A DNA stretch of 45,259 bases from an uncultured Porphyromonadaceae bacterium (GTDB lineage: Bacteria; Bacteroidota; Bacteroidia; Bacteroidales; Muribaculaceae), in the NCBI GenBank assembly GCA_947177635.1, contig CAMWVQ010000017.1, forward strand, positions 1-45,259, in the 5' to 3' direction. Within the stretch, counting starts at the first letter, position 1, and every line of letters starts with the position of its first letter. The notes below the pieces were generated by a model. It ran no database searches, was not told the origin of the DNA, and saw only the letters and a list, made by a program, of their open reading frames with translations. The position numbers and the translations under genes were made by a program. Below are positions 20,955-43,945 of this stretch, one piece after another.

Positions 20955-21050
20955 CAGCGTAAAATCGAATAGGAACAACAATGGACAAACAATTTTCAAC
21001 TTTGCTTGTCCATTGATTTATAAGTGTTTATATACTCTATAGCGGATTAA

Positions 21051-21217
21051 TACTCCTCCTCGTTGAAAACAAAAATCCTAATTGATTGTCAGATAGTTAT
21101 ATATTTGATGATGGATTTTAGCCAAGAAAACCACGGTGTCTCACGGCTTAAAATCGAATCGGCAAAGAATATTCTGGCGTTTGGCCAAGAAAACGATGTG
21201 AGACGAAGATTACTTAG
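21051..21217 (+). repeat. Left flanking repeat blocks of the nuclease module
   Basis: Three blocks recur on the other side of the two-gene module in the same strand orientation. TACTCCTCCTCGTTGAAAA (21051-21069) matches 24254-24272 with one mismatch. GATTGTCAGATAGTTATATA (from 21084) matches the region from 24220. GGATTTTAGCCAAGAA (21113-21128) is identical to 24119-24134. GCCAAGAAAA also recurs at 21121 and 21184, and TTACTTAG at 21210-21217. The order is X-Z-Y here and Y-Z-X on the right. The gap 20955-21266 holds nothing else recognisable. Confidence 0.75.
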
Positions 21218-21266: not shown

Positions 21267-22235
21267 TCAAAATATTATGCAGAAGGCTGCCATTATGAGT
21301 GCTACGACAGATATTATGAAGCTCCACATTTGTCGATGACTGAGTTTTGCAACGTTTTCATTTAACGCTTCAATGTGTTTCCTTAATTCGGTATTTTCTG
21401 ATTCTAACTGCTTAAATCTGCTGTCGTAACGTTTTGACAACTCGCTTTGATATCTACTGACGAAATCATGCATTTCTTTCGTTGCAGATTTAATCTCTTC
21501 TAGATAAGACTCTTTTGTCTTTTCGAGTTTTTTGTTATAATTATCAATAGTGTTTCCATACTCCTTGAGCTCGGATTCCAATTGATGCAAACGTTCATCT
21601 GTCTGTTGTTTTAAGCTATGCTCGAAATGCTCTTCTTTTTCTCTTAAGGCTCTATCACGATTCTCAAAATCATTTTCTAAATTCAAAATTCTGCCCAAAA
21701 ATTCTTCACGCAGACTGTTGATTTTTGCTCTCAGTGTCAGAGTCCTATTGAACGACTGCTCGAAAAGACCTGTGATCGCCTCGCTATCGATGTCATACTG
21801 CGAACATAAATCGCCCAATAAGTTTGCTATATTCTCTTTGGAACAATCACACTCTTCCAGCTGCCTATACAAGTCGTTCTCAATAGAAACTGATATTCTC
21901 AATAATTCAAGAATGGCTTCGAGGTTTTTCCCATTGGCAGTAAATGCCCCCAGCGTACATTTTGCCACTTCTTGAATGATTGATAAAATCCCCTCGAGAG
22001 ATTTTTCAATATTTGTAGTTCTGATGAGTCCCCATAAATATTCATTTTCCACGACAGGAGATGAGACCTTGTCGAGTTTGGCATAATTATCTTTGAGGGT
22101 ACTAACACCTTCTTTTATATTATTGTTAAGATCTACGATCTTTTGATGATCTATAGTGTTAATCTTGGCAACCAGATTATCCCTTTGTGCACTCAATGAA
22201 GTAATCTGCATGTTCTGGTCAAAAGTCACTTTCAT
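21267..22235 (-). CDS. Coiled-coil protein with C-terminal membrane anchor (module partner)
   Basis: A 322-residue protein. The N-terminal third is helical, residues about 165-300 are long coiled coil (LRALREKEEHFEHSLKQQTD-type heptads, ELKEYGNTIDNYNKKLEKTK), and the last 20 residues form one membrane helix (MWSFIISVVALIMAAFCIIF), giving a tail-anchored topology with the bulk in the cytosol. The start at ATG 22235 is preferred to TTG 22241. It overlaps the upstream gene by 17 nt in another frame, which implies translational coupling and a shared function. No named family is recognised. Coiled-coil plus anchor suggests a scaffold, sensor or assembly partner for the nuclease-like protein (inference). 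Confidence 0.7.
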   Translation of the reverse strand: MKVTFDQNMQITSLSAQRDNLVAKINTIDHQKIVDLNNNIKEGVSTLKDNYAKLDKVSSPVVENEYLWGLIRTTNIEKSLEGILSIIQEVAKCTLGAFTANGKNLEAILELLRISVSIENDLYRQLEECDCSKENIANLLGDLCSQYDIDSEAITGLFEQSFNRTLTLRAKINSLREEFLGRILNLENDFENRDRALREKEEHFEHSLKQQTDERLHQLESELKEYGNTIDNYNKKLEKTKESYLEEIKSATKEMHDFVSRYQSELSKRYDSRFKQLESENTELRKHIEALNENVAKLSHRQMWSFIISVVALIMAAFCIIF

Positions 22236-24006
22236 TTTCAAATTTCTCTTTTAAAGCTGTTAAACGGCTTCTTGTTTCTAATAACTTTGCAGTTTGCTTG
22301 TTCGTTGAGTTAACTCTATTCTCAGTAGCTAGAATATTATCGCGGGTATCTTTTATATCGCTGATCACATTCCCGAAAAAACTATATGTGTCGCAGACAT
22401 CTCTGGTTGTCTTTAAAACTGACACATCGATTTTCAGATTATTCACAAAAATCGACTGCGAACGTGCGAGAGCAAGTTGCAAATGAGTGTCTCTGACCTT
22501 TAAAGAGCTCTTTGTATGGTCAAATAGCATAAGAACGAGATTCGAAAATATACCAGCAAGCAAACCTGCCAAGCATTCAGCAACAAACGATGCGATTTGT
22601 GGTGGTATAGCCATGCCTAACAATGATTTTTCGATGAATTCATTCAGAGAGAAACCCAAAATAGCCACCATTCCTGCCGAAAGTACTTTGGCGGCTTCAA
22701 ATATTTTTTCTTGCCATGGACGCGCTTTGTCGCATATGATACTTAAAGCACTCTTGATTGATCCAAACATTTGACGTATAACGCTGAATACACGCTTAAA
22801 GGTACCAAGAAGGAAGTCGTTGATGGCGTTCATAAGCTCGGAACCGACCGCTCCTTTTATATTCGCACCAATATTTTTGAGAATGTTAAGAGCTTTGACC
22901 TTAACTTTTCCCCAACAAGCCAACAAAACGGTCTTGATGTATGGAAGGAGCCCCTGTTCGTGAATAATCTGTTCCTTTTCGACAAAAGAAACTATCAAAT
23001 TGGCAATGATATGCTTCAATAAATCTTTTACTATTGAAATGCCAATACCCTTAGCGGCTCTTATTCCGCGAACTTTTGCCTCATGCTTGACATATGCAAT
23101 CTTTTCATCACGGATATATTGCAGCATTTCCTCTTCCGCATTTTCCTTACCACGCAAAATATCAGCGAGTTTAGAACAGTATCCCTTATGTGAAGAAGAA
23201 TCATGAACGTCGGTTGGAACCAGATACATACCATCTCCTGTTTCATGAATAGTCAGATGATTATCCTTTCTCCAATTGGCCGCCTCTTGTTTGGATGAAA
23301 ACCCGAATTTTTCTTTTAATGCTTCGTCAAAAGCATCAAAATTTTGTTCTCTAATATATCCAGCCGCACTTACCGCCCTACCTTCGGCCACAGCATTTTT
23401 ATAACCGGTCTTGATTGTCTCTATATCTGGCATCGGAACAATCGGGCCGATACGATAGTTCCTTAAGCCAGACAATGACTCAAAATTTTGAGTCGAATCA
23501 CTGGTTTTAATCGAATTCGTATCACCTTTTGAAGCTACTGTATTTGTTTTTAATCGCTGACGGTATGCCTCATTATATCTTTCGAATTTTGCCTTGCCGG
23601 CTTCTGACATTCCGTTGGTATGCCCCTCAACATTACGGTCGAATGGATTCACCTTGGCATCACTCATGCTACGTGTCTGCCAATTCTCACTAGTTCCTCT
23701 GTCTGCAGGTTTGTTGCGTTTGTCAATTTCTATTTCATTTAAATCATTAACAGAGTCTGGATCTTTATATTTGTCAAAGGATTCTCCAGTATCCGTCATG
23801 GAGTCGACATAATCGATAGCGCCTTTCTTTACAGCCTCCATCAAATCAGTCATCAAATCGTGACTATCGTCAATTTTCTTTTGGAGATCATTGATTTGGG
23901 CAACTAACGCTTCTTCTTGTTCTGATAGTATTGCATCAAATGATTCAAGCGTCAAGTCATCATGCTCTATTACTATATCAGGTACTAAACCATAATTATT
24001 TTCCAT
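22219..24006 (-). CDS. HNH/ENDO VII-like nuclease-domain protein with hydrophobic segments
   Basis: A 595-residue protein. The N-terminal 150 residues are helical and acidic. Residues about 225-300 carry an HNH/ENDO VII-type core: an NWRKDNHLTIHE stretch, then GMYLVPTDVHDSSSHKGY, giving His254, Glu255, His268 and His273 in the order expected for the TxHE...LVP..VH....HxG motif of WHH/LHH-type nucleases. After it comes the basic helix IAYVKHEAKVRGIRAAKG, then several hydrophobic segments (about 320-345, 440-455, 470-495) and a C-terminal helical part. In known toxins this core is normally C-terminal; here it is central. ATG 24006 is preferred to TTG 24012. It is the first gene of a coupled two-gene operon. 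The nuclease assignment is by motif only. Confidence 0.65.
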   Translation of the reverse strand: MENNYGLVPDIVIEHDDLTLESFDAILSEQEEALVAQINDLQKKIDDSHDLMTDLMEAVKKGAIDYVDSMTDTGESFDKYKDPDSVNDLNEIEIDKRNKPADRGTSENWQTRSMSDAKVNPFDRNVEGHTNGMSEAGKAKFERYNEAYRQRLKTNTVASKGDTNSIKTSDSTQNFESLSGLRNYRIGPIVPMPDIETIKTGYKNAVAEGRAVSAAGYIREQNFDAFDEALKEKFGFSSKQEAANWRKDNHLTIHETGDGMYLVPTDVHDSSSHKGYCSKLADILRGKENAEEEMLQYIRDEKIAYVKHEAKVRGIRAAKGIGISIVKDLLKHIIANLIVSFVEKEQIIHEQGLLPYIKTVLLACWGKVKVKALNILKNIGANIKGAVGSELMNAINDFLLGTFKRVFSVIRQMFGSIKSALSIICDKARPWQEKIFEAAKVLSAGMVAILGFSLNEFIEKSLLGMAIPPQIASFVAECLAGLLAGIFSNLVLMLFDHTKSSLKVRDTHLQLALARSQSIFVNNLKIDVSVLKTTRDVCDTYSFFGNVISDIKDTRDNILATENRVNSTNKQTAKLLETRSRLTALKEKFENESDF

Positions 24007-24118: not shown

Positions 24119-24272
24119 GGATTTTAGCCAAGAATAAAGTAAAAATTGGCCAAGAAAACTATGGGGTAAAACGGGATAAAACAGCAATGGCCAAGAAAAT
24201 CATTTATTACTTAGCCGTTGATTATCGGGTAGTTATATAAACTTATCGCTTAGTACTCCTCTTCGTTGAAAA
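24119..24272 (+). repeat. Right flanking repeat blocks of the nuclease module
   Basis: Contains GGATTTTAGCCAAGAA (24119-24134), GCCAAGAAAA at 24149 and 24190, TTACTTAG (24207-24214), a GATTATCGGGTAGTTATATA block (from 24220) and TACTCCTCTTCGTTGAAAA (24254-24272). All have counterparts at 21051-21217 in the same orientation. The sequence is non-coding in all frames as far as I can see. Confidence 0.75.
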
Positions 24273-24371
24273 GTGAGTAGATTGCTGTGTATGAGGATAT
24301 TAGGGTGTTATGTTTGCATTTGGCAAAACAAACTGCGCCATTTGAGACGGTCTGAGGCGGTTGCCGAGCCT

Positions 24372-24437
24372 TTGGCCAAACATTGGTCAAACATTGGTCA
24401 AACATTGGTCAAACATTGGTCAAACATTGGTCAAACA
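24372..24437 (+). repeat. Six 11-bp tandem repeats (iteron-like)
   Basis: Five exact copies of TTGGTCAAACA follow one variant, TTGGCCAAACA, without gaps. The 11-bp period is close to one helical turn, so a bound protein would contact the same DNA face at each copy. No spacers occur, so this is not CRISPR. The rest of 24273-24605 shows no credible gene; a 79-codon frame across the repeats is repetitive because of them. Confidence 0.9.
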
Positions 24438-24605
24438 TACTGCCAAATCTCTTATTTTCTTCTTTCTTTGGAGGATTTCATTTTGTTGGAGAAGTTTATT
24501 TTATATAAATAACTGATAATGAGGGATTTTTATTTCCCCAAAATCCTCTTTTGGCAAGTTTATAACATTTGTTAACATTACAGAGGGAGCCTTTCTTCTC
24601 GTTCA

Positions 24606-25538
24606 TCATAGCTGTGAGATAAGTTCTGTTCCGGTCATAACATCCATCTTTGAGAACGCAAACAGTTTCTTGCCGAGGTCTTTAAGCGAATGACCGATGT
24701 GATAGACTTCCTCATCAATTATAAGAAAACGGTCGTGAGCCTTGTTGTAAGCGTGTAAGGTCACACCCGGATACTGGGCATTGTGTCGCGCAACATCCTG
24801 ACGAAGCTGCAGTGAAATTTTACCGTCATAAATATCAACAGTCACACCGGGATTCCGTTTTGACAGTTGCACTAGTACCGAATCGTCAACATAGCTGTCA
24901 ATGACAACTATCCGTTTTTTAGCCTTTCTGATTAGTTTGGCAATGAAGGCATACGCATCGAAAATCTGACCATCAAAGAAAATGCCCTCTCTTATTTCAT
25001 CATACCTATTTAGTCTATCCAGTATTGTGTCAACTTTTTCATCGGTTTTTAGTTGTTTCATTTCAAGACGGTCAAGTCTCTGCAAAAGAGAGCCATGTTT
25101 TTTGATGAAATTCCGCATTAGAGTAAATGCTCGCATAATCCGGATATTTACTTCTATGGCTTTTTCTGAACGTAGAACACTACTGAGCATTGCAACTCCA
25201 TTTTCGGTAAAAGCGTATGGCATATACCTTGAACCACCTCTGCCTCCGTTTGAGGTCACAATTTGTGACCTCAAACATTCGTCCTTTGTAAGTTGGAACA
25301 TAAAGTCCGTTGGGAACCGTTGGATATTGCGTTTAACTGCTTGGTTCAATACCTTAGTCTCAACTCCGTATAACTTTGCGAGATCACTGTCAAGCATAAC
25401 CTGTTCCTCCCGTATAATATATATGAGAGATTCTATATTTATGGATAACAGCTGACGGTCATTTAAGCCATCGTGTTTTTGGAGACTTTTAGACTGCTGT
25501 TTATCTTGATATTCTTTGTTTTCTTGTGTAGATTCCAT
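24606..25538 (-). CDS. ORF6N domain protein with PLD-like C-terminal domain
   Basis: A 310-residue protein. Residues about 35-120 are the ORF6N DNA-binding domain (YIIREEQVMLDSDLAKLYGV ... ETKVLNQAVKRN ... RFPTDFMFQLT ... AFTENGVAMLSSVLRS), known from phage and mobile-element regulators of the KilA-N/ORF6N group. A short coiled coil follows. The C-terminal half (about 190-310) resembles a phospholipase-D fold with IVVIDSYVDDSVL and a single HDRFLIID motif in place of HKD, followed by HIGHSLKDLGKKLFAFSKM. ATG 25538 is preferred to TTG 25544. Its role in the element is unknown; gene control or DNA processing is possible. Confidence 0.8.
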   Translation of the reverse strand: MESTQENKEYQDKQQSKSLQKHDGLNDRQLLSINIESLIYIIREEQVMLDSDLAKLYGVETKVLNQAVKRNIQRFPTDFMFQLTKDECLRSQIVTSNGGRGGSRYMPYAFTENGVAMLSSVLRSEKAIEVNIRIMRAFTLMRNFIKKHGSLLQRLDRLEMKQLKTDEKVDTILDRLNRYDEIREGIFFDGQIFDAYAFIAKLIRKAKKRIVVIDSYVDDSVLVQLSKRNPGVTVDIYDGKISLQLRQDVARHNAQYPGVTLHAYNKAHDRFLIIDEEVYHIGHSLKDLGKKLFAFSKMDVMTGTELISQL

Positions 25539-25540
25539 AT

Positions 25541-25550
25541 GCAAAGGTAC
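25541..25550 (-). promoter_or_regulatory. Promoter -7 box of the ORF6N gene; also a GTANNTTTGC match
   Basis: TACCTTTGC (25549-25541, minus strand) ends 2 nt before the ATG at 25538. With the preceding G it reads GTACCTTTGC, an exact match to the CTnDOT-type attachment core GTANNTTTGC. Which role applies cannot be decided from sequence alone. Confidence 0.45.
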
Positions 25551-26614: not shown

Positions 26615-26731
26615 ATGAAAACAAAAATGCTCAGCGTCTTCGCCGACACAATCCGCGAGTATCAGACCAGACTGATGATGGCAATCGCCTTCCGTATGAT
26701 GAAGTCTCTTTCTAAAAAGTATGACAGATGA
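26615..26731 (+). CDS. 38-residue micro-ORF coupled to the HTH gene
   Basis: A short frame starting MKTKMLSVFADTIREYQT and ending MKSLSKKYDR. Its TGA overlaps the next gene's ATG in an ATGA arrangement (26728-26731), the classic sign of translational coupling. The peptide is basic and helical. The leader ACACTAAATCCGAAAAG resembles the leader motif of other genes of the element. Its small size leaves doubt, but the coupling makes a real gene or leader peptide likely. Confidence 0.5.
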   Translation: MKTKMLSVFADTIREYQTRLMMAIAFRMMKSLSKKYDR

Positions 26732-27057
26732 GAACGGAGGAATACAGGACACTTATACGGCTTATCCGTGAGCTGGCATCGGAGGTCAGAGAGGTCAGGA
26801 CAGGACTCGACTGCAAGATTGACAATGTGGCGAAAAAGGTGACGGAGGCTTTTCAAGGCTTCGGCATCCTTGACCCGGAGGAAGAGACTTGGACCGAGCA
26901 GCAGGTCTGCGAAAGATACCATGTTTCAAGACGCACGATGTATGAATATCGCAAAAGCGGCTTGATAGCCTATATCAAGACAGGCTCCGGCAAAAATTGC
27001 AAGGTCAAGTACCGCAAAGCCGATGTGATGGAGTTTTTCTCCGTGCAGAACGCATGA
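26728..27057 (+). CDS. HTH_17/excisionase-type DNA-binding protein
   Basis: A 109-residue protein. The N-terminal 45 residues are helical (TLIRLIRELASEVREVRTGL). Residues about 52-105 form a helix-turn-helix with wing (WTEQQVCERYHVSRRTMYEY, then RKSGLIAYIKTGSGKNCKVK and KADVMEFF), the layout of small HTH_17 proteins at the head of Bacteroides conjugative-element operons. It probably regulates or aids excision. It is coupled to the micro-ORF upstream and followed by a UUCG-loop hairpin and the DUF4099/DUF3945 gene. Confidence 0.75.
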   Translation: MRTEEYRTLIRLIRELASEVREVRTGLDCKIDNVAKKVTEAFQGFGILDPEEETWTEQQVCERYHVSRRTMYEYRKSGLIAYIKTGSGKNCKVKYRKADVMEFFSVQNA

Positions 27058-27082
27058 CACACACCTACAACAAAATAATCCC

Positions 27083-27100
27083 GCGCCACTTCGGTGGTGC
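27083..27100 (+). promoter_or_regulatory. UUCG-tetraloop hairpin in the leader of the next gene
   Basis: GCGCCAC-TTCG-GTGGTGC forms a 7-bp stem with the very stable UUCG loop, 29 nt before the ATG at 27130. It may stabilise the mRNA or affect coupling. No T-run follows, so it is not a terminator. Confidence 0.55.
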
Positions 27101-27129
27101 AAGTATCAAACCCAAAACACTTTTAATTT

Positions 27130-28614
27130 ATGGCAAAAGACCAAAACTTGGAAGAAGTGCTTATCGCCCGTAACAACGACACAGGGCAGGTAGGCGCAGT
27201 GACCGGACTCAACGAGGACGGCACACCTAAAATGACCGATGTAAAGTCGGCAAAACTCTCAGACCTTGTGAAATTTTCCAAAGGTCAGAACCCGCTGGAG
27301 GCGTTTCTCTCCAATTTCGTCCGACAGTGCAAGAACCCCACGACCTTCGGTTTCTTCCGCGTCCCCGCGGATCGCTACGATACGGTAGGCACCGTAATCG
27401 GGGACCTCGCAAAAGACCCCGTGGCAAATGCCGATATGCTGAAGAACAACAAGGTCGATCTACCGCAGGCGACACAGGACAATAAACAGGCGGCTACGCA
27501 GACGGCCGAACAGCCCAAACAATCGCCGGCAGGCTCACCGCAGGAGGAACAGCAGACACAATCCAACGCACAGGCATCAGCAAAGGAAACCAGACACTCT
27601 GCCATTGACGAGAGCAAAATCGACTGGGCGAACCTCAAGGAAAAATGGGGTATTGACCGCGATGAGCTGGCAAAATCGGGAGACCTCAGCGAGATGCTCT
27701 ACAACCGAAAGTCAAAGGTAGTCACGGTGACGCCGACATTCGCCGGAGAGAAATTTCTCATCGACGCACGCCTGTCATTCCGTACCGATGCTGACGGCAA
27801 TGTAAAGGTGGTACCGCACTTCATTCACCGTGAGCCGAAACTCGATCAGGAGTTCAAGGGCTACAACTTCTCCAAAGAGGAAAAGGCCGTTCTTCGAGAA
27901 ACCGGCAACCTCGGCAAGACCATCGAGCTTACAGGCGCGAACGGCGAGAAGGTGCCGTCATACGTCAGCATCGACCGCTACACCAATGAAATCGTATCCG
28001 TACCGGTCAAGGATGTGCGCATTCGAGACACTGTTGGCCAGACCAAGCTGACCGACGCAGAGATAGCTCAGCTTAAACAGGGTATGGCACTCCCTCCTAA
28101 AGAGATAACCGACAAACACGGCAAGACCTACAATGTGGTGCTTCAGGTGTCGGCCGACCGCAAGGGTGTGGAGTTCGTTCCAGGCGCGGTCAGAAAGCAG
28201 GAACAGTCGCAGACACAGAGCGGCACTACGAATCAGCAGCAGTCGTCATGGCTCACGAAGGACGGCAAGATAAAGCCGCTGACCAAATGGGCTAAAATAC
28301 CTCTGACCGAACAGCAGCAGAAAGACTACGCCGAGGGCCGCGTGGCGGAACTTACCAATCGCCTCGATGACAAGGGACAGCCATGCACGGTGTATCTCTG
28401 GTTCAACCCGGAGAAACAGCGTCCCAACACATCGCTCAACGACCCACGCGTACAAGTGGCCGAGGAATCAAAGACACAGAAGGCCGTCAACAACGACGGT
28501 CTGACCAATGAGGCGACAAGCAAAGTGGCAGAACCGCTCCAGAAATATCAGACGGCTCCCAAGAACGAGGAACAGATGCGTCAGCAGCGCAAGCCCAAAG
28601 GCCCGAAGATGTAA
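27130..28614 (+). CDS. DUF3945/DUF4099 domain protein of conjugative elements
   Basis: A 494-residue cytosolic protein. The N-terminal part (about 1-105; ARNNDTGQVGAVTGLNEDG, FSKGQNPLEAFLSNFVRQCK) is the DUF3945-type head. A Gln/Pro-rich linker follows (about 110-160). DUF4099 (IDWANLKEKWGIDRDELAKS, about 165-250) and further repeated domains come next (YNFSKEEKAVLRETGNLGK; LTDAEIAQLKQGMALPPKEI; WAKIPLTEQQQKDYAEGR). Such proteins occur next to topoisomerase genes in Bacteroides conjugative elements; their function is not established. It is followed by a short hairpin (28658-28679) and a motif shared with other leaders. Confidence 0.8.
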   Translation: MAKDQNLEEVLIARNNDTGQVGAVTGLNEDGTPKMTDVKSAKLSDLVKFSKGQNPLEAFLSNFVRQCKNPTTFGFFRVPADRYDTVGTVIGDLAKDPVANADMLKNNKVDLPQATQDNKQAATQTAEQPKQSPAGSPQEEQQTQSNAQASAKETRHSAIDESKIDWANLKEKWGIDRDELAKSGDLSEMLYNRKSKVVTVTPTFAGEKFLIDARLSFRTDADGNVKVVPHFIHREPKLDQEFKGYNFSKEEKAVLRETGNLGKTIELTGANGEKVPSYVSIDRYTNEIVSVPVKDVRIRDTVGQTKLTDAEIAQLKQGMALPPKEITDKHGKTYNVVLQVSADRKGVEFVPGAVRKQEQSQTQSGTTNQQQSSWLTKDGKIKPLTKWAKIPLTEQQQKDYAEGRVAELTNRLDDKGQPCTVYLWFNPEKQRPNTSLNDPRVQVAEESKTQKAVNNDGLTNEATSKVAEPLQKYQTAPKNEEQMRQQRKPKGPKM

Positions 28615-28693
28615 TCTTCAAAAGCAGGAATAAGACCCTGCACCCCGAAACGGCATCCCGGAGAGTCCGGAATCTCCGGTGCTATTTCAAACA

Positions 28694-28709
28694 AACCACT
28701 ATATCCGAA
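28694..28709 (+). repeat. Shared leader motif, copy 1
   Basis: AACCACTATATCCGAA occurs here, 27 nt upstream of the ATG at 28737, and again at 30094-30109 upstream of the DUF1896 gene. A related ACACTAAATCCGAAAAG lies upstream of the micro-ORF at 26615. This suggests a common regulatory element for genes of the conjugative element. Confidence 0.6.
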
Positions 28710-28736
28710 AAATCCACCCGATAAAAAAGAAAGAAA

Positions 28737-29885
28737 ATGAAACAGAAAAATCTTATAACTGTCGTGACCGACCACCAGATCACTGCGGACACCATCGCCA
28801 AAGCAATCGGTGCGAATGAAAAACATGAAGGCTATTATCTCGGCAACGGCTATGCCGTGACATGGACAAACGGACAGCTCATCGAAGCAACATTCTCCCC
28901 GCGGGATAGTTTCGTACTCTCCACCTCGATGGACAGCCGACTGGCCTACGCCCACAATTTCAAGTTCACCATGCGCGACTATGACGTGCTTGTGGGATAC
29001 AAGAAATCTGCCGAGGACGCCGTACAGTTTGAAACAATCAAGGCCCTGTGGAATATGAGCCGGACAGTCGTCAACGCCATGCGTCCCGACATTACGGGAG
29101 ACCTCGACTTCCTGAGCCTCTACTACTTCATCGCCTTCCCTGTTGAAGTACGCCGCGCATGGCTCCCCGTGTTGACCAAGAAAGCCATCGTCCATGCCGT
29201 AAACCACGGGCCGCAGAACCGCAAGGAATACGATAAATGGCTGGAGAAATCCATCTACAACGTAATCGTACAGGCCGCAGAGGAAAATGCAGACCTTAAA
29301 GGTTCGCCGGTCATTGAGGAAATATCCGTATCTGAGGCTGCCAAGGACGCCGAATGCGCGGGAGTACCCGCCCCGGCTGCTGGAGAATTCCGTCATGGAA
29401 ATCTCTATACAGGCATAATAACCGACCGCATTCCGCTGTTCAATCTCCCGGCCCTGTTTATACAGGCTTCCTGTGAGCTGGGTTATACCCATGAAAAGAC
29501 AATACTGACAGCATACCGGCTGTATGCCAAGAAACTCATATCATATCCGTTGGTGATGCAGACCACTGTCTCCGGCGGAGTATGGAAAGCGATGCTCCGC
29601 AACATAGACACCCTGCGCTATAACAGCAGGTGGGGCAAGACAATGGAAGCAGGCAGACCCTCCAGATGCCATAATTTCCGCAATGGGGAAAGCGTCTATA
29701 ACGGTTTCGGTATCGTCACCACCGGGCTGCATCCCACAGACCTCACCCGCGACGAGGAGAAACTCTACAACCTCATAGTCAAGCGCGTCATCGATGCCTT
29801 CGCTTCCGACAACCACGGCAAAGGACAAAAGGCCAAAGGCGGCAGGAAGAATAACCGCCGTTACCACAAGGGTAAGAAGGCATAA
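28737..29885 (+). CDS. Degenerate topoisomerase III-like protein
   Basis: A 382-residue protein resembling a shrunken type IA topoisomerase (TopB). The N-terminus VVTDHQITADTIAKAIGA ... GYYLGNGYAVTWTNGQLI aligns with the Toprim start of TopB (VAEKPS..A..IA...GA; GYAVTW..GHL), but the EKPS segment is replaced by TDHQ and I see no DxDxE motif. Residues about 235-275 (LFNLPALFIQASCELGYTHE, then TILTAYRLYAKKLISYP) align with the TopB segment ending ITYPRTDS, keeping the Tyr-Pro but losing the following Arg-Thr. It has a basic C-terminal tail. Length is about half that of TopB. It is probably DNA-binding without strand-passage activity (inference). Confidence 0.7.
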   Translation: MKQKNLITVVTDHQITADTIAKAIGANEKHEGYYLGNGYAVTWTNGQLIEATFSPRDSFVLSTSMDSRLAYAHNFKFTMRDYDVLVGYKKSAEDAVQFETIKALWNMSRTVVNAMRPDITGDLDFLSLYYFIAFPVEVRRAWLPVLTKKAIVHAVNHGPQNRKEYDKWLEKSIYNVIVQAAEENADLKGSPVIEEISVSEAAKDAECAGVPAPAAGEFRHGNLYTGIITDRIPLFNLPALFIQASCELGYTHEKTILTAYRLYAKKLISYPLVMQTTVSGGVWKAMLRNIDTLRYNSRWGKTMEAGRPSRCHNFRNGESVYNGFGIVTTGLHPTDLTRDEEKLYNLIVKRVIDAFASDNHGKGQKAKGGRKNNRRYHKGKKA

Positions 29886-29963
29886 ACGGTCAAAACCGCC
29901 TAAAACCTCTTGAAATCAAGACAGAATAACCATAACAATCCCTCCCGTGTCAAGATAATTTAT

Positions 29964-29972
29964 TATCTTTGC
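29964..29972 (+). promoter_or_regulatory. Promoter -7 box of the DUF1896 leader
   Basis: TATCTTTGC matches TAnnTTTGC. It lies 144 nt upstream of the ATG at 30117 and only 56 nt upstream of a strong terminator hairpin. Confidence 0.65.
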
Positions 29973-30028
29973 CATTGATTCGACGTCATTATGTTTTTTG
30001 TTTCATTTTTGACGCGGATTTAGTGGTT

Positions 30029-30061
30029 GGACATCGGGAGGGATCCCGGTGTCCTTTTTTT
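30029..30061 (+). terminator. Intrinsic terminator or attenuator in the DUF1896 leader
   Basis: GGACATCGGGA (30029-30039) pairs with TCCCGGTGTCC (30044-30054), an 11-bp stem with a 4-nt loop, followed directly by seven T. It would end transcripts of about 85 nt from the box at 29964. Flanking arms 30015-30029 and 30093-30107 can form a 15-bp helix with one mismatch around it, sharing one base with the terminator stem. Confidence 0.75.
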
Positions 30062-30116
30062 GCCGTCATAGCACGGAGCGGAAAGGACTCGGCAACCACT
30101 ATATCCGAATCCCACG

Positions 30117-30563
30117 ATGAAACATAACATAGAACTCCCGGAGGCGGACTTCTTCCAAGTCTATCTCCGTGGTCATCTAATGGACCATCATTTTCCCCAG
30201 AGAGACAATACGAATTTCATAGAAACCCGCTCGGACGACGCATACGACACATTCGTGTCGGCGCGTCTGGAGGGCAAGCCCGTTCCGATTGCCCGTGAGC
30301 TGGCGATGCGCACACTCCTTGCCGGACTGTATGTGTCGCGCTACGACATTATATATAATGTGGTGGAGGAAAACCTCTGGCGGCGTCTGCCGCCGGAGTA
30401 TATGCCAGACTTCGCCGTTCATCTGCTCGGACAGAAACCTGTCAGCGACATACTTGACCGCTACGAGGTCAACGGCGACTTCCTTGACAGGGAGACCCAT
30501 CAGCCGATGCTGACCGAACTGCTCGGAACAATCACCGAAATACTGGACGGCTATGGCTTATAA
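30117..30563 (+). CDS. DUF1896 family protein
   Basis: A 148-residue cytosolic protein of the DUF1896 family, recognised from [40 protein letters not shown] and [21 protein letters not shown]. The family is found almost only in Bacteroidetes conjugative elements, directly upstream of the large methylase/helicase gene, as here. Function unknown. The 3' end overlaps the next gene by 11 nt, which implies translational coupling, so it probably acts with that protein. Confidence 0.85.
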
Positions 30564-33500
30564 CCGCCTCCGTACCATGCGCGACAACATCGAGGCGATA
30601 AGGCTTGTCCTGCGTCTCGGTGTGGCCGGACGCACTGCGCAAAATGTCGAAGAACGCGAGACACTGCGGAAATATGCAGGTTTTGGCGGACTGAAATGTA
30701 TCCTCAATGAAGCCAATGATTTAGAGGATGCCGCCAAATGGAGTAAAACAGATATTGAATTATTCGCCCCGACCGTTGAACTGCGCCGATTGATTCACGA
30801 CTATTCAAAGGACGACAAGGAGTTTGCCCGATATATGGATTCTCTGAAAGCCTCCGTGCTTACGGCTTTCTATACACCTGCACCTGTCATTGACGCAATA
30901 TCCGGCTCTCTGAAACAGGCGGGTATAGAGGTGCGGCGTTTTCTTGAACCGTCAGCCGGACAGGGCGCATTTATAGATTCCTTCTTGCGCAACGATATGT
31001 ATCCCGGTACGGAGGTGCTTGCCTACGAAAAGGACTTGCTAACCGGCAAAATCCTTTCAGCCCTGCACCCGTCTATACTTACACGGATAGAAGGCTTTGA
31101 AAAGATAGAGAGCGACTTCAACGGATATTTTGATGTCGCCGCCTCCAATATCCCCTTCGGCAATTTTGCCGTGCCTGACCCGACGTATGCCGTCAGCAAG
31201 GATATTCCGTACCGTCAGGCATCAAAGGCGATACACAACTATTTCTTTCTCAAGACCCTTGATTCGGTGCGTGAGGGAGGGCTGGTAGCGTTTATCGCAT
31301 CGCAGGGCGTCATGAACGCCGCGTCTCCGTTTGTCAGAATGGAGATGATGAAACGTGCCGACCTTGTGGCGGCATTGCGCCTGCCGAACAACACGTTTAG
31401 CGAGAACGCCGGAACCGATGCAGGTTCTGACCTTATCATTCTCCAGAAACATAGCGACAAGAAGAATCTTTCCTTTGACGAGGAACTTTTCACGCAGTCC
31501 GTTATCGACAACGCCACAAAGGTACCCGGCAACAAGTTCTTTCAGACATTTCCCGACAACGTAATATGTACTGATGCAAAAATGGGTACGGACCAATACG
31601 GCAAACCGGCGATTGTCTATACTCATAAGGAGGGTGTTTACGGTATCGTCCACGATATAGGGACGGCTCTCCAATTATCCTTCCGGCTGCGCCTTGATAT
31701 AGACCGCTATAACGGCTACGCCCCCAAACTGACACCTCCGACATCCCCGACAGTCAGACAGGAGACCGCCGAGAAGAAAAACGAGGCCGTCAAGAGAACC
31801 ACCGTTACAAAGGTGGCACCGCTGTTGGACCAGTACCGGGAAATGAAAAAGAAACATCCCGACGCCATTCTGTTGTTCCGTGTCGGAGATTTCTATGAGA
31901 TATTCGGAGAGGACGCAGTAAAAGCGTCCGAGATACTCGGCATAACCCTTACACGCCGCCTTAACGGGCCGACACGCAGTATCGAGCTTGCCGGGTTCCC
32001 GTATCATGCCCTCGACACCTATCTGCCCAAGCTCGTAAGAGCCGGGCAGCGTGTGGCGATATGTGAGCAACTGGAAGAACCGAAACATAAGGTCGTGGAG
32101 GAAATCACTCCTAATAATAAAAGAGTGGAGCCTCCGGTTGATACAAAGATTGAACAGGAATCGGCACCGGAACCTCCGACGGATCAACCACCAACCTCTG
32201 AACCGCCTGCAACTGCACCTACGGATAAACCGCAGGAAATAGAAACCGACGGCGCACCCGATTACAGCGGCGACTATGATCCACGGCTTTTTGCCTATAA
32301 TCTTTTCGGAGAACTGGAGCCAATCGGCAAACCACAACGCAGGCATAAGGCTGAACCGAAAAATGACAAGACCGAGACCAAGCCTGTCAACCGACCTAAA
32401 AAGGATGCGCCCTTACCTTCCAAAGTTAAATTCCGTCAGCTCACCGACAAGGAGCTGGAGTTTTATGGCTCCCTTAACTGGGATGACAATCCGCCTATCA
32501 ACGGATTCTACGAGGCTATGATGTCTATCGCCCACCGACAGCTGGAGGAAAGGGCGAGAATGGAGGCGGAAGCCATGTCTGCCGAGGCTGCCAGAGCTGC
32601 GGGCATCGCCCCCGGCGAGACATATATCGAAAAGACCGAGGGGGATTTCATACCCGGCGGCCGCAACCGTCCGCCGAAAGTCACAGCCATACCGATAGAG
32701 GGTGCGGGGCCGGATATGTCGCCGAGAAGATTCTCGGAGGATATACGGTCTTTCCACAAGAACGGCTCTATGGTGGTGGACAACGGTCAGGTCGGATTTC
32801 TCTCCGAGGTCAGGAAGAACGGCGCGACATTCAAGCCTATGCGCATAAAGCCGGAACAGGCACAACGCGCTATGCTCTATATAACCCTGTCGGAGACATA
32901 CCAGCAGTTATATGACTACGAGGTGGAGACACAGGAGCCGTCGGAGGAACTGCGCGAACATCTCAACCAGTATTACGATGAGTTCGTGGAGCGATACGGG
33001 CATCTCAACGAGAAAGCCAACGCCAAGCTGATTATGCTGGACGCCAACGGCATGGATTCACTTGCTCTGGAACGCGCGGAGGCGGGGCTGTTTGTCAAGG
33101 CCGACATCTTCGACCATCCCGTCGCCTTCAATATCCACGAGGTGACTTCAGTCAATACCCCGATGGAGGCGTTGGCGGCGTCGCTCAACAAGTACGGCGA
33201 TGTGAGGCTCGGATATATGTCCTCGCTTGTGGACATGGATGAGAACCAAATTGCCGAAGAACTGAAAGGTCATATCTACTTCAATCCACTTGTGTCGGAA
33301 TACGAGACCGTCGACCGCTTCGTCGCCGGAAACGTGGTGAAGAAAGCGGAGATGATTGAACAGTGGATAAAAGACCATGACGCCCATGACAGCCGGATTG
33401 ACGAAAGTCTTTCGGCGTTGAAGAATGCGGTTCCCCGCAGGATCACTTTCGAGGAACTTGACTTCAATTTCGGGGAGCGGTGGATACCCACAGGCATCTA

Positions 33501-36500
33501 CTCCGCATACATGAGCCATCTGTATGAGACCGACATCAAGATTGCCTATTCGCCTTCTCTGGATGATTATTCCGCGACAAACTCGGAAAACACCATGAAG
33601 ATACTGGAGGAATTCCGTGTAAAAGGTGAATATCGCTCCTACAACGGCATGAGCCTGTTGAAACACGCCCTGCACAACACCGTGCCGGAGATAAAGAAGT
33701 GTATCGGCAAGGACGACCACGGTAACGACATCAAGGTGCCGGACACCGAGGCGATACAGCTCGCCAATTCCAAGATTGAAGAAATCCGCGACGGTTTTTC
33801 CGAATGGCTGGAGGTTCAAAGCCCGGAGTTTAAGGAGAGGCTGGTTGACCTGTATAACCGCAAGTTCAACTGTTTTGTCAGACCGAGGTATGACGGGTCC
33901 CACCAGACTTTTCCCGGCCTCAACCTGAAGATGCTGGCTGACCGTTACGGCATACATTCGATATATGCCTCACAGAAGGACTGCGTATGGATGCTGAAAC
34001 AGAACGGAGGCGGAATAGCCGACCATCAGGTCGGCACAGGCAAGACACTGATAATGTGCATAGCCGCGCACGAGATGAAGCGTCTGGGCATGGTGCATAA
34101 GCCGATGATTATCGGACTGAAAGCCAATGTCGCCGACATAGCCATGACCTATCAGGCAGCCTATCCCGACGCCCGCATCCTGTATGCCGATGAAAAGAGC
34201 TACACCGCGCAGAACCGTGTCCGATTCTTCAACAATATGCGTAACAACGACTATGACTGCATAATAATGTCGCACGACCAGTTCGGCATGATACCGCAGT
34301 CGCCGGAGGTGCAGCAGGAGATACTGGAGGCGGAGCTGAACACCGTCGAGGAAAACCTTGATGTGGTCCGGCAGCAGGGCAAGGATGTGTCACGGGGTAT
34401 GCTCCGGGGGCTGGAGACCCGCAAGAAGAACCTTGAGGCGAAGCTGGAGACGGTGCGCTATCAGATAGACCACCGCACTGACGATGTGATCGACTTCCGG
34501 CAGATGGGCATAGACCACATTTTCGTGGATGAAAGTCATCAGTTCAAAAACCTTATGTTCAACACCCGCCACAACCGTGTCGCGGGGCTGGGTAACTCAG
34601 ACGGGAGCCAACGCGCCCTCAACCTCCTTTTCGCCATACGCACCATTCAGGAGCGCAACGGCAGGGATTTGGGGGCCACTTTCCTCAGCGGTACCACTAT
34701 CAGCAACTCACTTACAGAGCTGTATCTGCTGTTTAAGTATCTGCGTCCGAGAGAACTTGAAAGGCAGGACATCCGCTGTTTCGACGCATGGGCGGCGATT
34801 TTTGCAAAAAAGACCACAGACTTCGAGTTCAATGTAACCAATAATATCGTGGCAAAGGACAGATTCAGGTACTTTATCAAGGTGCCGGAATTGGCGGCGT
34901 TTTATAATGAAATCACTGACTATCGCACGGCGGAGGATGTGGGAGTTGACCGTCCTGAAAAACGGGAGATACTCCACAACATACCTCCCACTCCACAGCA
35001 GGAGGAGTTCATTCAGAAACTGATGGAGTATGCAAAAACTGGTGACGCAACTCTGTTGGGACGCGGTGCGCTGTCGGAGAAAGAGAAGAAAGGAAAGATG
35101 CTCATCGCCACGGACTATGCCCGCAAGATGGCTCTTGATATGCGTATGATTGACCCTTCCTATGAGGATCACCCGGATAACAAAGCCTCGCATTGCGCCC
35201 GTATGATAGCCGAGTATTACCGCAAATTTGACGCCCAGAAAGGCACACAGTTTGTTTTCAGCGATTTGGGGACATACAAGCCCGGCGAATGGTCAGTTTA
35301 CAGTGAAATCAAACGTAAACTTATCGAGGACTACGGTATCCCGGCGCATGAAATCCGGTTTATACAGGAGTGCAAGACTGCGAAATCACGGAAAGCCATC
35401 ATAGAGGCTATGAACGAAGGCTCTGTAAGGGTTTTGTTCGGTTCGACATCCATGTTGGGGACAGGCGTAAACGCCCAGAAAAGGGCTGTCGCGGTCCATG
35501 AGCTTGACACGCCGTGGCGTCCCAGCGACTTGGAGCAGCGCGAGGGCCGTGCCATACGCAAGGGCAACGAGGTCGCGAAGCTCTACAACGACAACAAGGT
35601 CGATGTGATAATCTATGCAGTGGAGAGGTCGCTGGACTCCTACAAGTTCAATCTTCTTCACTGCAAGCAGACTTTCATATCGCAGTTGAAACGTGGCGCA
35701 TTAGGTGCGAGAACCATTGATGAAGGCTCTATGGACGAGGATACCGGCATGAACTTCTCGGAGTATATGGCTATTCTTTCAGGGAACACCGACCTGCTTG
35801 AAAAGGCCAAACTTGAAAAGCGCATAGGCGCGCTGGAAAGTGAGCGAAAGGCGCACGGCAAGGGAAAGGCTGACAGCGAATATAAGCTGCGTTCCCTGAA
35901 CGACGACATCGGAAAGAACGAGATCACCATGCGAAAAATGCAGTCGGATTTGGATAAATATCAGGCTGCCGTCAAGCGAGATGATGAAGGTAATCCGTTG
36001 CCCGGTCTGACTCTTGATGGTTGCGGGCTCACCGATATTCAGAACATGGGTATCCATCTGCAAGGACTGGCACAGCGTACCAACACCCACGGCGAATCTG
36101 TTCGTGTCGGAGAGGTATATGGCTTTCAGATAAGCATTATCTCCGAAAAAACGCTAACCGATGGCATCGAGGCAGTACAGAACCGCTTTGTCGTGGAGGG
36201 CGAGTACAAGTACCGTTACAACAACGGATTTATCGCCATGAGCGACACAAAAGCTACCTGTATGAATTTCGTTAATGCTCTGGAGCGTCTTCCCGAAATC
36301 ATACGCCAGTATGAGGAACGCACCGAGAAAATGCGGAAGGATGTCCCGTTGCTCGAAGCCATCATCGCAAAGCCGTGGGGTAAGGAGGATGAGCTGAAAG
36401 CGTTGAAATCCGAACTTGCCGTCCTTGACCGTAAGATCACTGCCGAACTTGCTCCCAAGCATGATGAAAAGGACGGCGAGGAAGTCAAGCGGGATGAAAA

Positions 36501-36636
36501 ATCCCAACAGACTAATGCCATTGATAATCCTTCACATTCGTCAAATTCAAAGGAATCATTGGTCGCTGAACCTCTGGCCAGTTATACCCAATGTGATATG
36601 CCTCGACCATCTTCGCTCAATTTTAAAAGGCTTTGA
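30553..36636 (+). CDS. Giant N6-methylase / MutS-domain-I / SNF2-helicase fusion protein
   Basis: A 2027-residue protein. The N6-methylase-like domain (about 30-400) has SAM motif [12 protein letters not shown] (about 131) and a catalytic motif IV variant, NIPF (about 200), in place of NPPY. Next comes an inserted MutS domain I (about 423-515) with [16 protein letters not shown], including the Phe-Tyr-Glu of the MutS mismatch-reading motif. A Pro/Glu-rich linker extends to about 650. An SNF2-type helicase follows, with Walker A GTGKT (about 1160), DESH box (about 1325), and motifs [23 protein letters not shown] and [15 protein letters not shown] (about 1637-1672). The C-terminus is coiled coil. 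Similar giants in conjugative elements and phage (DarB-like) are thought to protect incoming DNA; that role is inferred here. Confidence 0.85.
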
Positions 36637-36642
36637 GATGAA

Positions 36643-36684
36643 AAAACGGACGTTGTTGAAAAATACAACGTCCGTTTTATTTTT
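36643..36684 (+). terminator. Terminator after the giant methylase-helicase gene
   Basis: A perfect 14-bp stem (AAAACGGACGTTGT with ACAACGTCCGTTTT) with an 8-nt loop, followed by ATTTTT. It starts 6 nt after the stop codon. Confidence 0.85.
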
Positions 36685-36701
36685 AATCCAAAAATAAATT
36701 G

Positions 36702-36709
36702 TAACTTTG
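36702..36709 (+). promoter_or_regulatory. Promoter -7 box of the predicted structured RNA
   Basis: TAACTTTG matches TAnnTTTG and lies just downstream of the preceding terminator, so it would start an independent transcript. Confidence 0.55.
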
Positions 36710-36715
36710 TAAGCG

Positions 36716-36927
36716 AATAGCAATGGCGGTTGGTGACGACCACCGCTTCAACATATTGCATTCGTATTGACTCGTAAAGGAAAACTGCTAATTTTCATTG
36801 ATAGACGAGGACATACGGAGCAATCGTGTCGTATTTTTACACAAATACGGCACGGTCTGCATACATCCGTCTATCAGCCTTTAGCAGTGGCTCCTTTACG
36901 GGCGTATGCAGATTCGTGCTTTTTTTA
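36716..36927 (+). ncRNA. Predicted highly structured RNA with its own terminator
   Basis: The stretch folds as a long interrupted hairpin. CGTAAAGGA (36773-36781) pairs with 36892-36900, ACTGCTAA (36784-36791) with 36881-36888, and TGATAGACG (36799-36807) with 36868-36876. An apical hairpin, GTGTCGTATTT (36826-36836) with AAATACGGCAC (36843-36853), sits inside. A separate 5' hairpin lies at 36726-36746. A seven-T run at 36920-36926 follows. It has no credible reading frame. It starts after a promoter box and ends 52 nt before the TetR gene, so it may be a small RNA or a leader. No named family is recognised; ends are approximate. Confidence 0.6.
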
Positions 36928-36978
36928 TCATATCGGCAGGGGGTTGCATCACAAAAAATGTAAACTCCTGCCTGTTAT

Positions 36979-37557
36979 ATGAAGCCACAAGAAAAAGCCG
37001 CCGAAACGAAAGAACGAATATTGACAAGGATATTGCCTCTTTTCCTTGTAAACAACTATGAGGCAATAACCATAGGTCTGATGGAGGATGCGACTTGCAT
37101 GACAAGGGGAACCATATATCGATACTTTGACAATAAGAAGGCCATCTTCAAGCAGGCACTATTCCGGTATTATGACTCACCGCAAAACGTGCTGTTTGCC
37201 ATACCTCCGGAGAAACACAATCTGTCTGAGTATTGGAAGCTGAAGATACGACAGCTTGAACGCGCCTACTCTTATATGAGGGAATATGGCATACTTGTCG
37301 ATATGCTCGCAATATCCCATTACATTGAGATACAGGGAATGCGCATTATCCCATCTTTTAGTGAAATGATAGCATCACACAAACACCGGAATCTCAAATA
37401 TTGGTCATTGGTGCTCAGGAACACGCCTGACATTTCCTTGAACACTCAAAGAATATCATATTTGAGAGCCGGGCAAATATACCACGGCCTCTTCCTGCAA
37501 TTATGTTCAAACTACCCTAAGGGGAAGTCAAGTTTGCCACCCATCAAATTCCCGTAA
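36979..37557 (+). CDS. TetR/AcrR-like transcriptional regulator
   Basis: A 192-residue regulator. The N-terminal 60 residues are a TetR-type DNA-binding domain (ETKERILTRILPLFLVNNYE, then ITIGLMEDATCMTRGTIYRY and FDNKKAIFKQAL), with TRGTIYRYF as the recognition-helix region. The C-terminal ligand domain is unrecognised. ATG 36979 starts 10 residues before the first helix. It lies downstream of the predicted structured RNA and upstream of rteC. A 7-bp palindrome with a 4-nt spacer, TTACTAT-ATTC-ATAGTAA (37655-37672), lies after it and is a possible operator. The ligand is unknown. Confidence 0.8.
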   Translation: MKPQEKAAETKERILTRILPLFLVNNYEAITIGLMEDATCMTRGTIYRYFDNKKAIFKQALFRYYDSPQNVLFAIPPEKHNLSEYWKLKIRQLERAYSYMREYGILVDMLAISHYIEIQGMRIIPSFSEMIASHKHRNLKYWSLVLRNTPDISLNTQRISYLRAGQIYHGLFLQLCSNYPKGKSSLPPIKFP

Positions 37558-37654
37558 TTTGAGCAAATATCAGTTAAGGAGCACAAAGCCCTTGTTGGCA
37601 AGGACTGTCTGCGGATTTTAACATATCTGTTCACAGTGTAAAATTTTAAAATAT

Positions 37655-37762
37655 TTACTATATTCATAGTAATAAGACAACTAATGTAGTTAGTTGAACA
37701 AATTGAAATCACGATATGTTATAATGCCTGTTGTAATCAAATATCAGTTCAGCATTATAACA
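37655..37762 (+). promoter_or_regulatory. Inverted repeats in the rteC leader
   Basis: TTACTAT-ATTC-ATAGTAA (37655-37672) is a dyad of operator size. TGTTATAATGC (37717-37727) is the exact reverse complement of GCATTATAACA (37752-37762) with 24 nt between. CAAATATCAGTT also occurs directly repeated near 37564 and 37739. The interval 37558-37807 has no gene. These are candidate binding sites for TetR, RteC or an upstream regulator (inference). Confidence 0.45.
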
Positions 37763-37807
37763 CACCTATGAACAGATTCAATAATTCAAAAAAAAAAGAC
37801 CCGATAA

Positions 37808-38398
37808 ATGGATATCTTTTCACTTACCGAGACCGAGTTCTTCCGAAAGCTGACCGACGGAGAGAACGACAATTTAAGCATAGCCTATAAAGATTTTGTG
37901 TTACAGGTCAGTAAGTTGTGCAATAATGAACCACATAAAGGCTGCGTAATAAGCGCGTTGCTGTTTGTGGAGGTAGAGATAAGCCACTTACAGACGGCGG
38001 CACAACGTCAGGAGGTCAACGATGCACTCGTTTCATTCATCAACAAAGCACTGTGTTTCTTACGTCAGACCCTGACCCACTACAAGGAGATAGATTTTCA
38101 TACTGTCAACGAAGATAATATGCTTGACAGTCTCGGACTTGACTGGAAGGCCAACAAGACAGACCTTATAGAACTGGGCTACGCCTTCAAGGTAGCCAAC
38201 TGCTTCGGAACCAAACTCAGCGCGAAAGATATAATCGGCAGGCTCGCCCGTATCTTTAAGGTCGATATGACCGAAAGCTACATCTACAAGAAATACTCGG
38301 AAATGAGGGTTAGAGGGCGCAACAGCCGCACATACTTTATGGATACCCTGATTGACGGGCTTAACAGCTTTATGTCAAAACAGGATCAGGAGAACTGA
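37808..38398 (+). CDS. rteC: RteC-type regulator of conjugative-element excision
   Basis: A 196-residue protein. The C-terminal half contains the RteC signature: LDWKANKTDLIELGYAFKVA, then DIIGRLARIFKVDMTESYIY and RNSRTYFMDTLIDGL. In CTnDOT, RteC activates the excision genes in response to tetracycline via RteA/RteB. No rteA/rteB two-component genes occur nearby in this window; a TetR-like gene precedes it instead, so the inducing signal may differ. Its length is slightly below that of CTnDOT RteC. The stop is followed by a bidirectional terminator shared with mobC. Confidence 0.8.
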   Translation: MDIFSLTETEFFRKLTDGENDNLSIAYKDFVLQVSKLCNNEPHKGCVISALLFVEVEISHLQTAAQRQEVNDALVSFINKALCFLRQTLTHYKEIDFHTVNEDNMLDSLGLDWKANKTDLIELGYAFKVANCFGTKLSAKDIIGRLARIFKVDMTESYIYKKYSEMRVRGRNSRTYFMDTLIDGLNSFMSKQDQEN

Positions 38399-38458
38399 CC
38401 TCCTCAGACCGATGTCCAGCCACTAATCCATCCAGATAATTAATCATACGCAAATAGT

Positions 38459-38494
38459 AAACCCCGGCCACTCGTGATGAATGGTCGGGGGGTT
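38459..38494. terminator. Bidirectional terminator between rteC and mobC
   Basis: CCCCGGCCA (38462-38470) pairs with TGGTCGGGG (38482-38490), a 9-bp stem with one G-T pair and an 11-nt loop, with T- and A-rich flanks. It is located between the convergent rteC and mobC stop codons. Confidence 0.6.
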
Positions 38495-38507
38495 GCTTTA
38501 TCTACTA

Positions 38508-40508: not shown

Positions 40509-40537
40509 AATAAATCTTGTGTTTGGAGTTTGACAAA

Positions 40538-42294: not shown

Positions 42295-42380
42295 TTTTGG
42301 ATAAAATTTAGTGGGTGATGTGAGATTGCCAACCGCAGGTTTCATCGGGGTATTTCGACTTTGGAGAAATACCGGCTCCA

Positions 42381-42456
42381 TGCAATGGCAAGGGTTTCGA
42401 GGCACAATCTTGGTTACAAGTGCCTCGGAACATACCTTGCCATGCACGTTTGTGCA
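42381..42456. other. Candidate oriT hairpin region
   Basis: A long imperfect hairpin lies 87 nt upstream of the mobA start. TGCAATGGCAAGG (42381-42393) pairs with CCTTGCCATGCA (42435-42446) with one bulged base, enclosing GAGGCAC/GTGCCTC (42399-42405 with 42420-42426). A small TGCAC-GTTT-GTGCA hairpin abuts at 42443-42456. Inverted repeats next to mob genes are typical of oriT, but the nick site cannot be identified. Confidence 0.45.
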
Positions 42457-42536
42457 TCCAAACTGATAATGAGAATATTGTAATCGGAACCCGCTTTGAA
42501 TGTTGTACGAAAGTTGTACGCAATAGTGGGCGATTC

Positions 42537-42568
42537 ATAATATCGGTGCCGATTCATACCGATATTAT
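42537..42568. repeat. 11-bp inverted repeat with overlapping direct repeat
   Basis: ATAATATCGGT (42537-42547) is the reverse complement of ACCGATATTAT (42558-42568). CGATTCATA is directly repeated at 42531-42539 and 42550-42558 across it. It lies in the intergenic region between the mob and tra operons and could be a relaxosome or repressor site. Confidence 0.6.
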
Positions 42569-43941: not shown

Positions 43942-43945
43942 GCGT

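Follow-up and report, generated by a model that had tools for sequence, protein, structure and literature searches.

Two overlapping genes, A and B, in a 45,259-nucleotide stretch of contig CAMWVQ010000017.1 from an uncultured gut bacterium of the Porphyromonadaceae (below, the window) are read here as a conflict module, most likely directed against phages, that is carried as cargo between two probable attachment-site copies beside a conjugative element. This reading, to which we give close to an even chance, holds that protein A joins a WHH-type His-Me-finger nuclease to a domain shared with PDC-M40B, and that B is its tail-anchored partner. The computed basis consists of the nuclease resemblance of A with its predicted core, the homology to PDC-M40B, the hydrophobic helix of B, the overlap of the two genes and the flanking motif copies. 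We infer a defence function, membrane binding and restraint of A, a trigger, binding between A and B, and DNA rather than RNA as the substrate. The original prediction, made from the sequence alone, had called a role in defence or inter-element conflict plausible, and as a plausible role it is supported. The genes and their parts are as follows.

22219..24006, minus strand: gene A, 595 aa from ATG, with an N-terminal helix, a putative WHH-type nuclease, a PDC-M40B-like helical domain and a C-terminal helix
23152..23367, minus strand: putative nuclease domain of A, residues ~214-285, from Pfam, tblastn, BLASTP and the structure model
23182..23247, minus strand: catalytic-type motif HETGDGMYLVPTDVHDSSSHKG, A residues 254-275, with H254, H268 and H273, from pairwise register and shuffles
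22483..23070, minus strand: PDC-M40B-like helical membrane-type domain, A residues ~313-508, from profile homology
21267..22235, minus strand: gene B, 322 aa from ATG, a coiled coil and one C-terminal hydrophobic helix (probable tail anchor)
21270..21326, minus strand: C-terminal hydrophobic helix of B, Kyte-Doolittle 2.65 over 19 residues

The putative nuclease and the membrane-type domain of A

Judged by sequence and by the structure model, A has at residues 214-285 what looks like a nuclease of the WHH type (HNH/ENDO VII-like). The conserved-histidine pattern of these enzymes is present in A (H254, H268, H273). The WHH-type test motif, [WI]H...M.LVP..[VIL]H....H.G, was derived from viral-contig WHH proteins and a plasmid HNH protein; a looser form of the HETGDGMYLVPTDVHDSSSHKG motif occurred in none of 100,000 shuffles of A and nowhere in 2.68 million six-frame residues (loci up to L097, the window's own excluded). 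Against Pfam, the isolated nuclease stretch matched Colicin-DNase (E 0.0024, 19.1 bits against a curated cut-off of 25) and WHH (E 0.015, 15.5 bits against 25.1). Because both matches miss the curated cut-offs, the nuclease would be at most a diverged member of these families.

A tblastn search of plasmids (limit E 1) returned six records, all annotated as HNH endonuclease, one from Methylobacter (E 1e-3) and five from Lactococcus (E 1e-2). In a two-sequence BLASTP, 25 of 71 residues were identical between the nuclease of A and a 198-aa plasmid HNH protein of Lactococcus cremoris, with E 3e-10. That value holds for a single comparison with a partner chosen by database search, and the database E of 1e-2 gives the more realistic measure. 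In that alignment WRKDN, HE, DG, VH and H.G are in register, and H254, H268 and H273 are aligned.

An AlphaFold2 model of A (ma59debc3e239; mean pLDDT 68.7, pTM 0.40) places strands at residues 251-256 and 259-264 and a helix at 265-270, which together form a beta-beta-alpha core; the block pLDDT is 84-85 at the core and 84-93 over residues 221-270. The predictor's alignment for A included four WHH fragments, and the predicted fold is therefore not independent of homology. The TIHE...LVPTDVH...SSH-G arrangement of HNH/ENDO VII (WHH/LHH-type) nucleases that the original prediction had recognised is supported by the histidine register, the sub-threshold Pfam matches and this core, and the beta-beta-alpha fold expected around His254-His273 was predicted, though from an alignment that held WHH fragments. 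Foldseek searches with the models of A and B gave nothing at E ≤ 0.001. The structural matches of A lie mainly over residues 314-504 and are generic helical bundles. In a PDB sequence search the nuclease stretch had a single match that looks like chance (E 0.71), and query A4 had 19 weak ones (best E 0.4).

The second half of A has a relative in PADLOC. Residues 290-572 match positions 235-519 of the PDC-M40B profile (PDLC04630) with E 2.2e-7, and a profile built here from 75 relatives gave A 54.7 bits, compared with 5.4 bits for the best of 400 shuffles. By these profile comparisons the hydrophobic part of A is homologous to PDC-M40B. The 75-sequence profile aligns to A at profile positions 251-441 only and leaves the canonical HNH half (DQHGGDVDT...LDH...N...N) unmatched, and because that half is not aligned A is classed by sequence as a variant of PDC-M40B, not a plain member. 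The label "unrecognised" given to the module at first consequently fails for half of A. A nuclease in the middle of the protein followed by hydrophobic segments had also been described; the internal position and the helical membrane-type domain stood, but the hydrophobicity is weaker than worded, with three weak stretches in A (best 19-residue Kyte-Doolittle means 1.45-1.57). The PDC systems of PADLOC are putative and were found by "guilt-by-embedding", according to PMC10855318. The membrane-type domain occurs, as far as is known, in predicted phage-defence proteins alone.

Both genes are intact open frames, and the two AT-rich genes with a 17-nt overlap that had been called from the letters were confirmed by ORF calls, translations and the GC profile. 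GC content is 37-40% at 21-24 kb, compared with 51-62% at 1-19 kb and 51-54% at 27-36 kb. The AT-rich stretch is broader than the module and extends to ~27 kb (43% GC at 20-21 kb, 38-39% at 24-26 kb, 46% at 26-27 kb). A promoter common to A and B is no more than plausible: a sigma-70-like site lies directly upstream of A (24056-24027), in line with the single promoter first proposed, but the number of such sites in a scan for sigma-70-type promoters is near chance (20 observed, 14.7 ± 3.5 expected).

Gene B and the proposed exchange of nuclease and partner

Gene B encodes a coiled-coil protein with a probable C-terminal tail anchor, as seen at first reading; the hydropathy of 2.65 agrees with one strong terminal helix. 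Its family matches are weak and of the coiled-coil type. PDC-M40C matches B nearly co-terminally (E 0.017), and several other coiled-coil models score higher; a PDB sequence search gave one weak match (E 0.007). ZorA-, LmuB- and Jet-like identities were dropped, the matches being coiled-coil artefacts.

A peptide-motif scan recovered 78 PDC-M40B-like loci from several phyla, in which an HNH nuclease of another type (LDH...N...N) precedes the same membrane-type module; the operon of Parabacteroides distasonis NM39_I3 (L020) is an example of canonical PDC-M40. The scan patterns, DQ[YH]GGDV and DTIHNVR, come from the canonical N-terminal half and could not find WHH-type variants, so that the HNH type of the 78 is partly by construction; because the scan required this half, it is the other searches that show the WHH form to be rare. 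Close relatives of A were found neither in the plasmids or phages searched nor in genome contigs, where the search finds only loci sharing an exact short peptide, and the viral contigs searched held close relatives of neither A nor B. In whole-genome samples, which overlap and whose sizes include the window's own genome, A matched besides itself in 0 of 295 genomes (order), 4 of 397 (family) and 1 of 296 (phylum), the last a weak match of 70 residues with an internal stop. Profile A3 gave two weak extra matches in the order sample (n = 393), the PDC-M40B model matched two of 296 genomes in the phylum sample (the window's own and one with the match in a 149-aa frame), and B matched only itself (n = 297). 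The WHH form was met once in this analysis, in a single genome.

Among 77 of the relatives, the partners were a glycine-rich PDC-M09A-like protein in 71, a CxxCxxCC protein in 51, a WYL regulator in 31 and TerB in 20. PDC-M09, itself a PADLOC candidate made up of the glycine-rich PDC-M09A and PDC-M09B, supplies partners to the relatives of A (four with PDC-M09A-like partners were scanned, and PDC-M09B was matched by two of 44). When the partner clusters c1-c5 were compared with the window by tblastn and profiles, only two chance-like matches appeared, one to a protein of the glycine-rich cluster c1 over 20 residues (E 0.008) and one to the c3 profile (E 0.08). Since the 78 PDC-M40B-like loci carry the HNH type and the glycine-rich partner of 71 out of 77 is absent from the window, the module is, by sequence, a nuclease-swapped and partner-swapped PDC-M40B variant, to which nothing in the collections searched is closely related.

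Other arrangements were also met. A three-gene variant (L011, 4946-8926) encodes an HNH nuclease with the membrane-type domain, a coiled-coil protein with a C-terminal hydrophobic helix, and an AAA ATPase. The coiled-coil protein is weakly similar to B: BLASTP gives E 0.003 and phmmer E 0.0057, the latter equalled by a coiled-coil protein that is unrelated. Beside relatives of the membrane half of A, B has no clear homologue. The original prediction had named homologues of A without B as counter-evidence, and for distant homologues this counter-evidence exists, since relatives of that half have other partners; close homologues were not found. At another locus (L088, 7525-9855), the first 526 residues of a fusion protein match BnzA of the Bunzi system (BnzA/BnzB) and the remainder clusters with the DUF533-like glycine-rich protein of L094; a PDC-M40B-like gene follows, making a link between Bunzi and PDC-M40/PDC-M09 possible. 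The BnzB model found nothing in four carrier genomes, a result of little weight as the model was silent in the control too, and BnzA was not among the listed matches of A, B (all 20) or the neighbouring ORF6N-domain gene described below.

The genes around the relatives of A were tallied for defence functions by taking up to two ORFs per locus of 180-700 aa within 7 kb, outside the partner clusters and skipping six near-identical loci, which left 128 ORFs; 11 were dropped by hand and 117 scanned against PADLOC at E ≤ 1e-10. At least one neighbour ORF was matched by 197 models. The best 25 of the 197 include JukA, type II MTase and AriA (two ORFs each) and HEC-01A, HEC-01B, type I REase, DRT, GajB and MzaA (one each). 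Because the tally has no background control, this defence-gene neighbourhood is only suggestive.

Compared with known systems, A resembles PDC-M40, a PADLOC-DB 2.0.0 candidate, in its order of nuclease and then membrane-type domain; it differs from PDC-M40B, with its LDH...N...N HNH nuclease, in the WHH-type nuclease and in having none of the usual partners. With WHH/Colicin-DNase nucleases it shares the motif, the histidines and the predicted beta-beta-alpha core, but those are C-terminal warheads or free-standing HNH proteins, whereas the nuclease of A is internal with a helical membrane-type domain behind it. SNIPE (PMC13190303) is a nuclease bound to the membrane; it cleaves phage DNA on entry and turns toxic once its membrane anchor is removed. 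Its nuclease lies at the inner membrane, where that of A would lie by analogy; SNIPE unites GIY-YIG nuclease, DUF4041 and a single N-terminal membrane helix in one polypeptide, whereas A has a partner gene. Because a Pfam search of A up to E 1 returned neither GIY-YIG nor DUF4041, A is, on domain content, not a SNIPE.

In the proposed mechanism, B and the PDC-M40B-like domain would keep the nuclease of A in check at the inner membrane. Entry of a phage genome, or the membrane disturbance accompanying it, would act as the trigger and bring DNA and nuclease together, and the nuclease would then cut either the entering DNA, as SNIPE does, or, once freed, the DNA of the host.

A broader proposal is more tentative, with the balance somewhat against it: PDC-M40B-like proteins may form a superfamily of membrane-positioned nucleases, in which one conserved membrane module is combined with at least two interchangeable nuclease types (HNH, WHH) and exchangeable partners (a glycine-rich membrane protein, a coiled-coil tail-anchored protein, an AAA ATPase, a BnzA-like protein) and is spread as cassettes at attachment sites. 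The comparison suggests that such proteins can swap the cutting part and keep the membrane part. As a kind, PDC-M40 is already catalogued, though unproven; the novelty lies in the exchange of nuclease and partner around one membrane-type module. If the proposal is true, the untested computational family PDC-M40 gains the hypothesis that its membrane module positions a replaceable nuclease, and the principle of SNIPE, membrane-bound nucleases set against entering phage DNA, would reach a different and widespread group.

As a separate observation, an operon on a Lactococcus cremoris plasmid (L110, 419-4619) encodes a HerA-type ATPase (DUF87), a WHH-type HNH protein and a DUF6985 protein, and may by its gene content be another conflict operon.

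Flanking motif copies and the conjugative element

Two copies of a 21-bp motif enclose the module; the original prediction had overlooked them together with the neighbouring conjugative element.

21047..21067, minus strand: copy 1 of the motif TTCAACGARGAGGAGTAYTAA, reading FNEEEY-stop, downstream of B
24250..24270, minus strand: copy 2 of the motif TTCAACGARGAGGAGTAYTAA, upstream of A
24271..24420, minus strand: arm adjoining copy 2, like the arm beside one copy in the same-genus genome G695, from local alignment

A degenerate TTCAACGARGAGGAGTAYTAA pattern has just these two matches in the window's own genome assembly, and the motif occurs in seven of 20 genomes, the window's own included. 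The six others hold seven copies. Five of these form the end of a 73-aa gene or of the same C-terminal sequence, and two do not. The 73-aa gene ending in the motif is one that we take to be DUF2795-like. Copies outside the window were located in L121 (123-143 and 2538-2558), L122, L124, L125 and L119. With two copies flanking the module and five of seven elsewhere forming the 3' end of the DUF2795-like gene, the motif behaves like an attachment core and may mark a hot spot where this genus collects conflict genes. If so, the 3' end of this small gene is a place where conflict genes may accumulate.

The arm beside copy 2 aligned with the G695 arm at a score of 126, compared with at most 40 in 200 shuffles, and the other nine arm pairs were at or near the shuffle level (best 41 versus 39). 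By this similarity, positions 24271-24420 are probably the end of the neighbouring mobile element. To the right of the module the same contig carries genes for a relaxase and a VirD4-like coupling protein. Window positions 26728-45259 hold a conjugative element; it also has genes that by eye look ParA-like and TetR-like, and it encodes a helicase-like protein of 2027 aa that matches MutS domain I. The contig ends within this element. On our reading A and B probably lie in an att-flanked (CIME-like) segment adjoining the conjugative element.

Alternative explanations

Several points weigh against the reading as an anti-phage module. Regarding the nuclease, both Pfam matches are sub-threshold, the database E-values of the plasmid matches are no better than 1e-3 to 1e-2, a MAFFT alignment of seven proteins brings H268 and H273, but not H254, into register with the other WHH proteins, the pTM of the model is low (0.40), and Foldseek gave no structural match over the nuclease itself, a part barely tested there. 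The hydrophobic stretches of A are marginal, which leaves its membrane insertion unproven, and B has no confirmed homologue. The PDC label of the relatives of A is itself a prediction, and PDC-M40 and PDC-M09 found no mention in the literature searched; we know of no experimentally tested protein of the PDC-M40B-like family. The defence tally, drawn from the best 25 of 197 models, has no background to be set against. Regarding the attachment site, the assembly that contains the window showed no intact gene ending in the TTCAACGARGAGGAGTAYTAA motif, and the integrase-like cluster c6 has no relative in the window, where no general integrase search was made.

The best-surviving alternative, although an unlikely one, is a toxin-antitoxin-like module that stabilises the mobile segment, with A as the toxin and B as its restrainer, so that loss of the cassette would be lethal. 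The overlapping genes adjoin a conjugative element, and the same motif precedes other genes elsewhere: in G695 two copies 2.4 kb apart surround a Fic-like gene, recognised by eye from the motif HPFADGNGR, and in G765 the motif is followed by a small gene pair that looks toxin-antitoxin-like by eye. Protein A is large, however, and relatives of its domain often come with a regulator and several partners, unlike simple toxin-antitoxin pairs.

WHH nucleases often serve as the warheads of polymorphic toxins, and A could be a delivered antibacterial toxin, contact-dependent or secreted, with the nuclease as warhead and B as adaptor or immunity protein. Colicin-DNase is the best Pfam name for the nuclease, and a viral-contig search found 11 loci, of which the four with a convincing WHH domain carry it near the protein C-terminus. 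Yet in polymorphic toxins delivery domains come first and the nuclease forms the very C-terminus, whereas that of A is internal and followed by ~310 residues, Pfam finds no delivery domain in A, and its second half is of the PDC-M40B type, whose relatives often have WYL regulators nearby. A delivered toxin is accordingly considered improbable. Equally improbable is a superinfection or conjugation exclusion factor of the neighbouring element that acts on incoming element DNA at the membrane: the module shares a contig with the relaxase and coupling-protein genes and sits in a probable att-flanked segment, but a motif copy separates it from the element and relatives of A occur in many unrelated bacteria. 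That the pair is what remains of a defence module, decayed or inactive and stripped of its canonical partners, is very unlikely, for although close relatives of A and, beyond the chance-like c1 and c3 matches, relatives of the c1-c5 partners were not found in the searches above, the frames are intact, the motif residues complete and the overlap tight.

Positions 24372-24448 of the window, beside the probable element end, contain tandem 11-mers, five exact TTGGTCAAACA preceded by one TTGGCCAAACA, and GCCAAGAAAA-type repeats occur on both flanks of the module. Past motif copy 2, towards the conjugative element, ORF 24606-25544 encodes an ORF6N-domain protein that matches the PADLOC candidate PDC-S05 (E 3e-116) and has a C-terminal stretch that appears PLD-like by eye.

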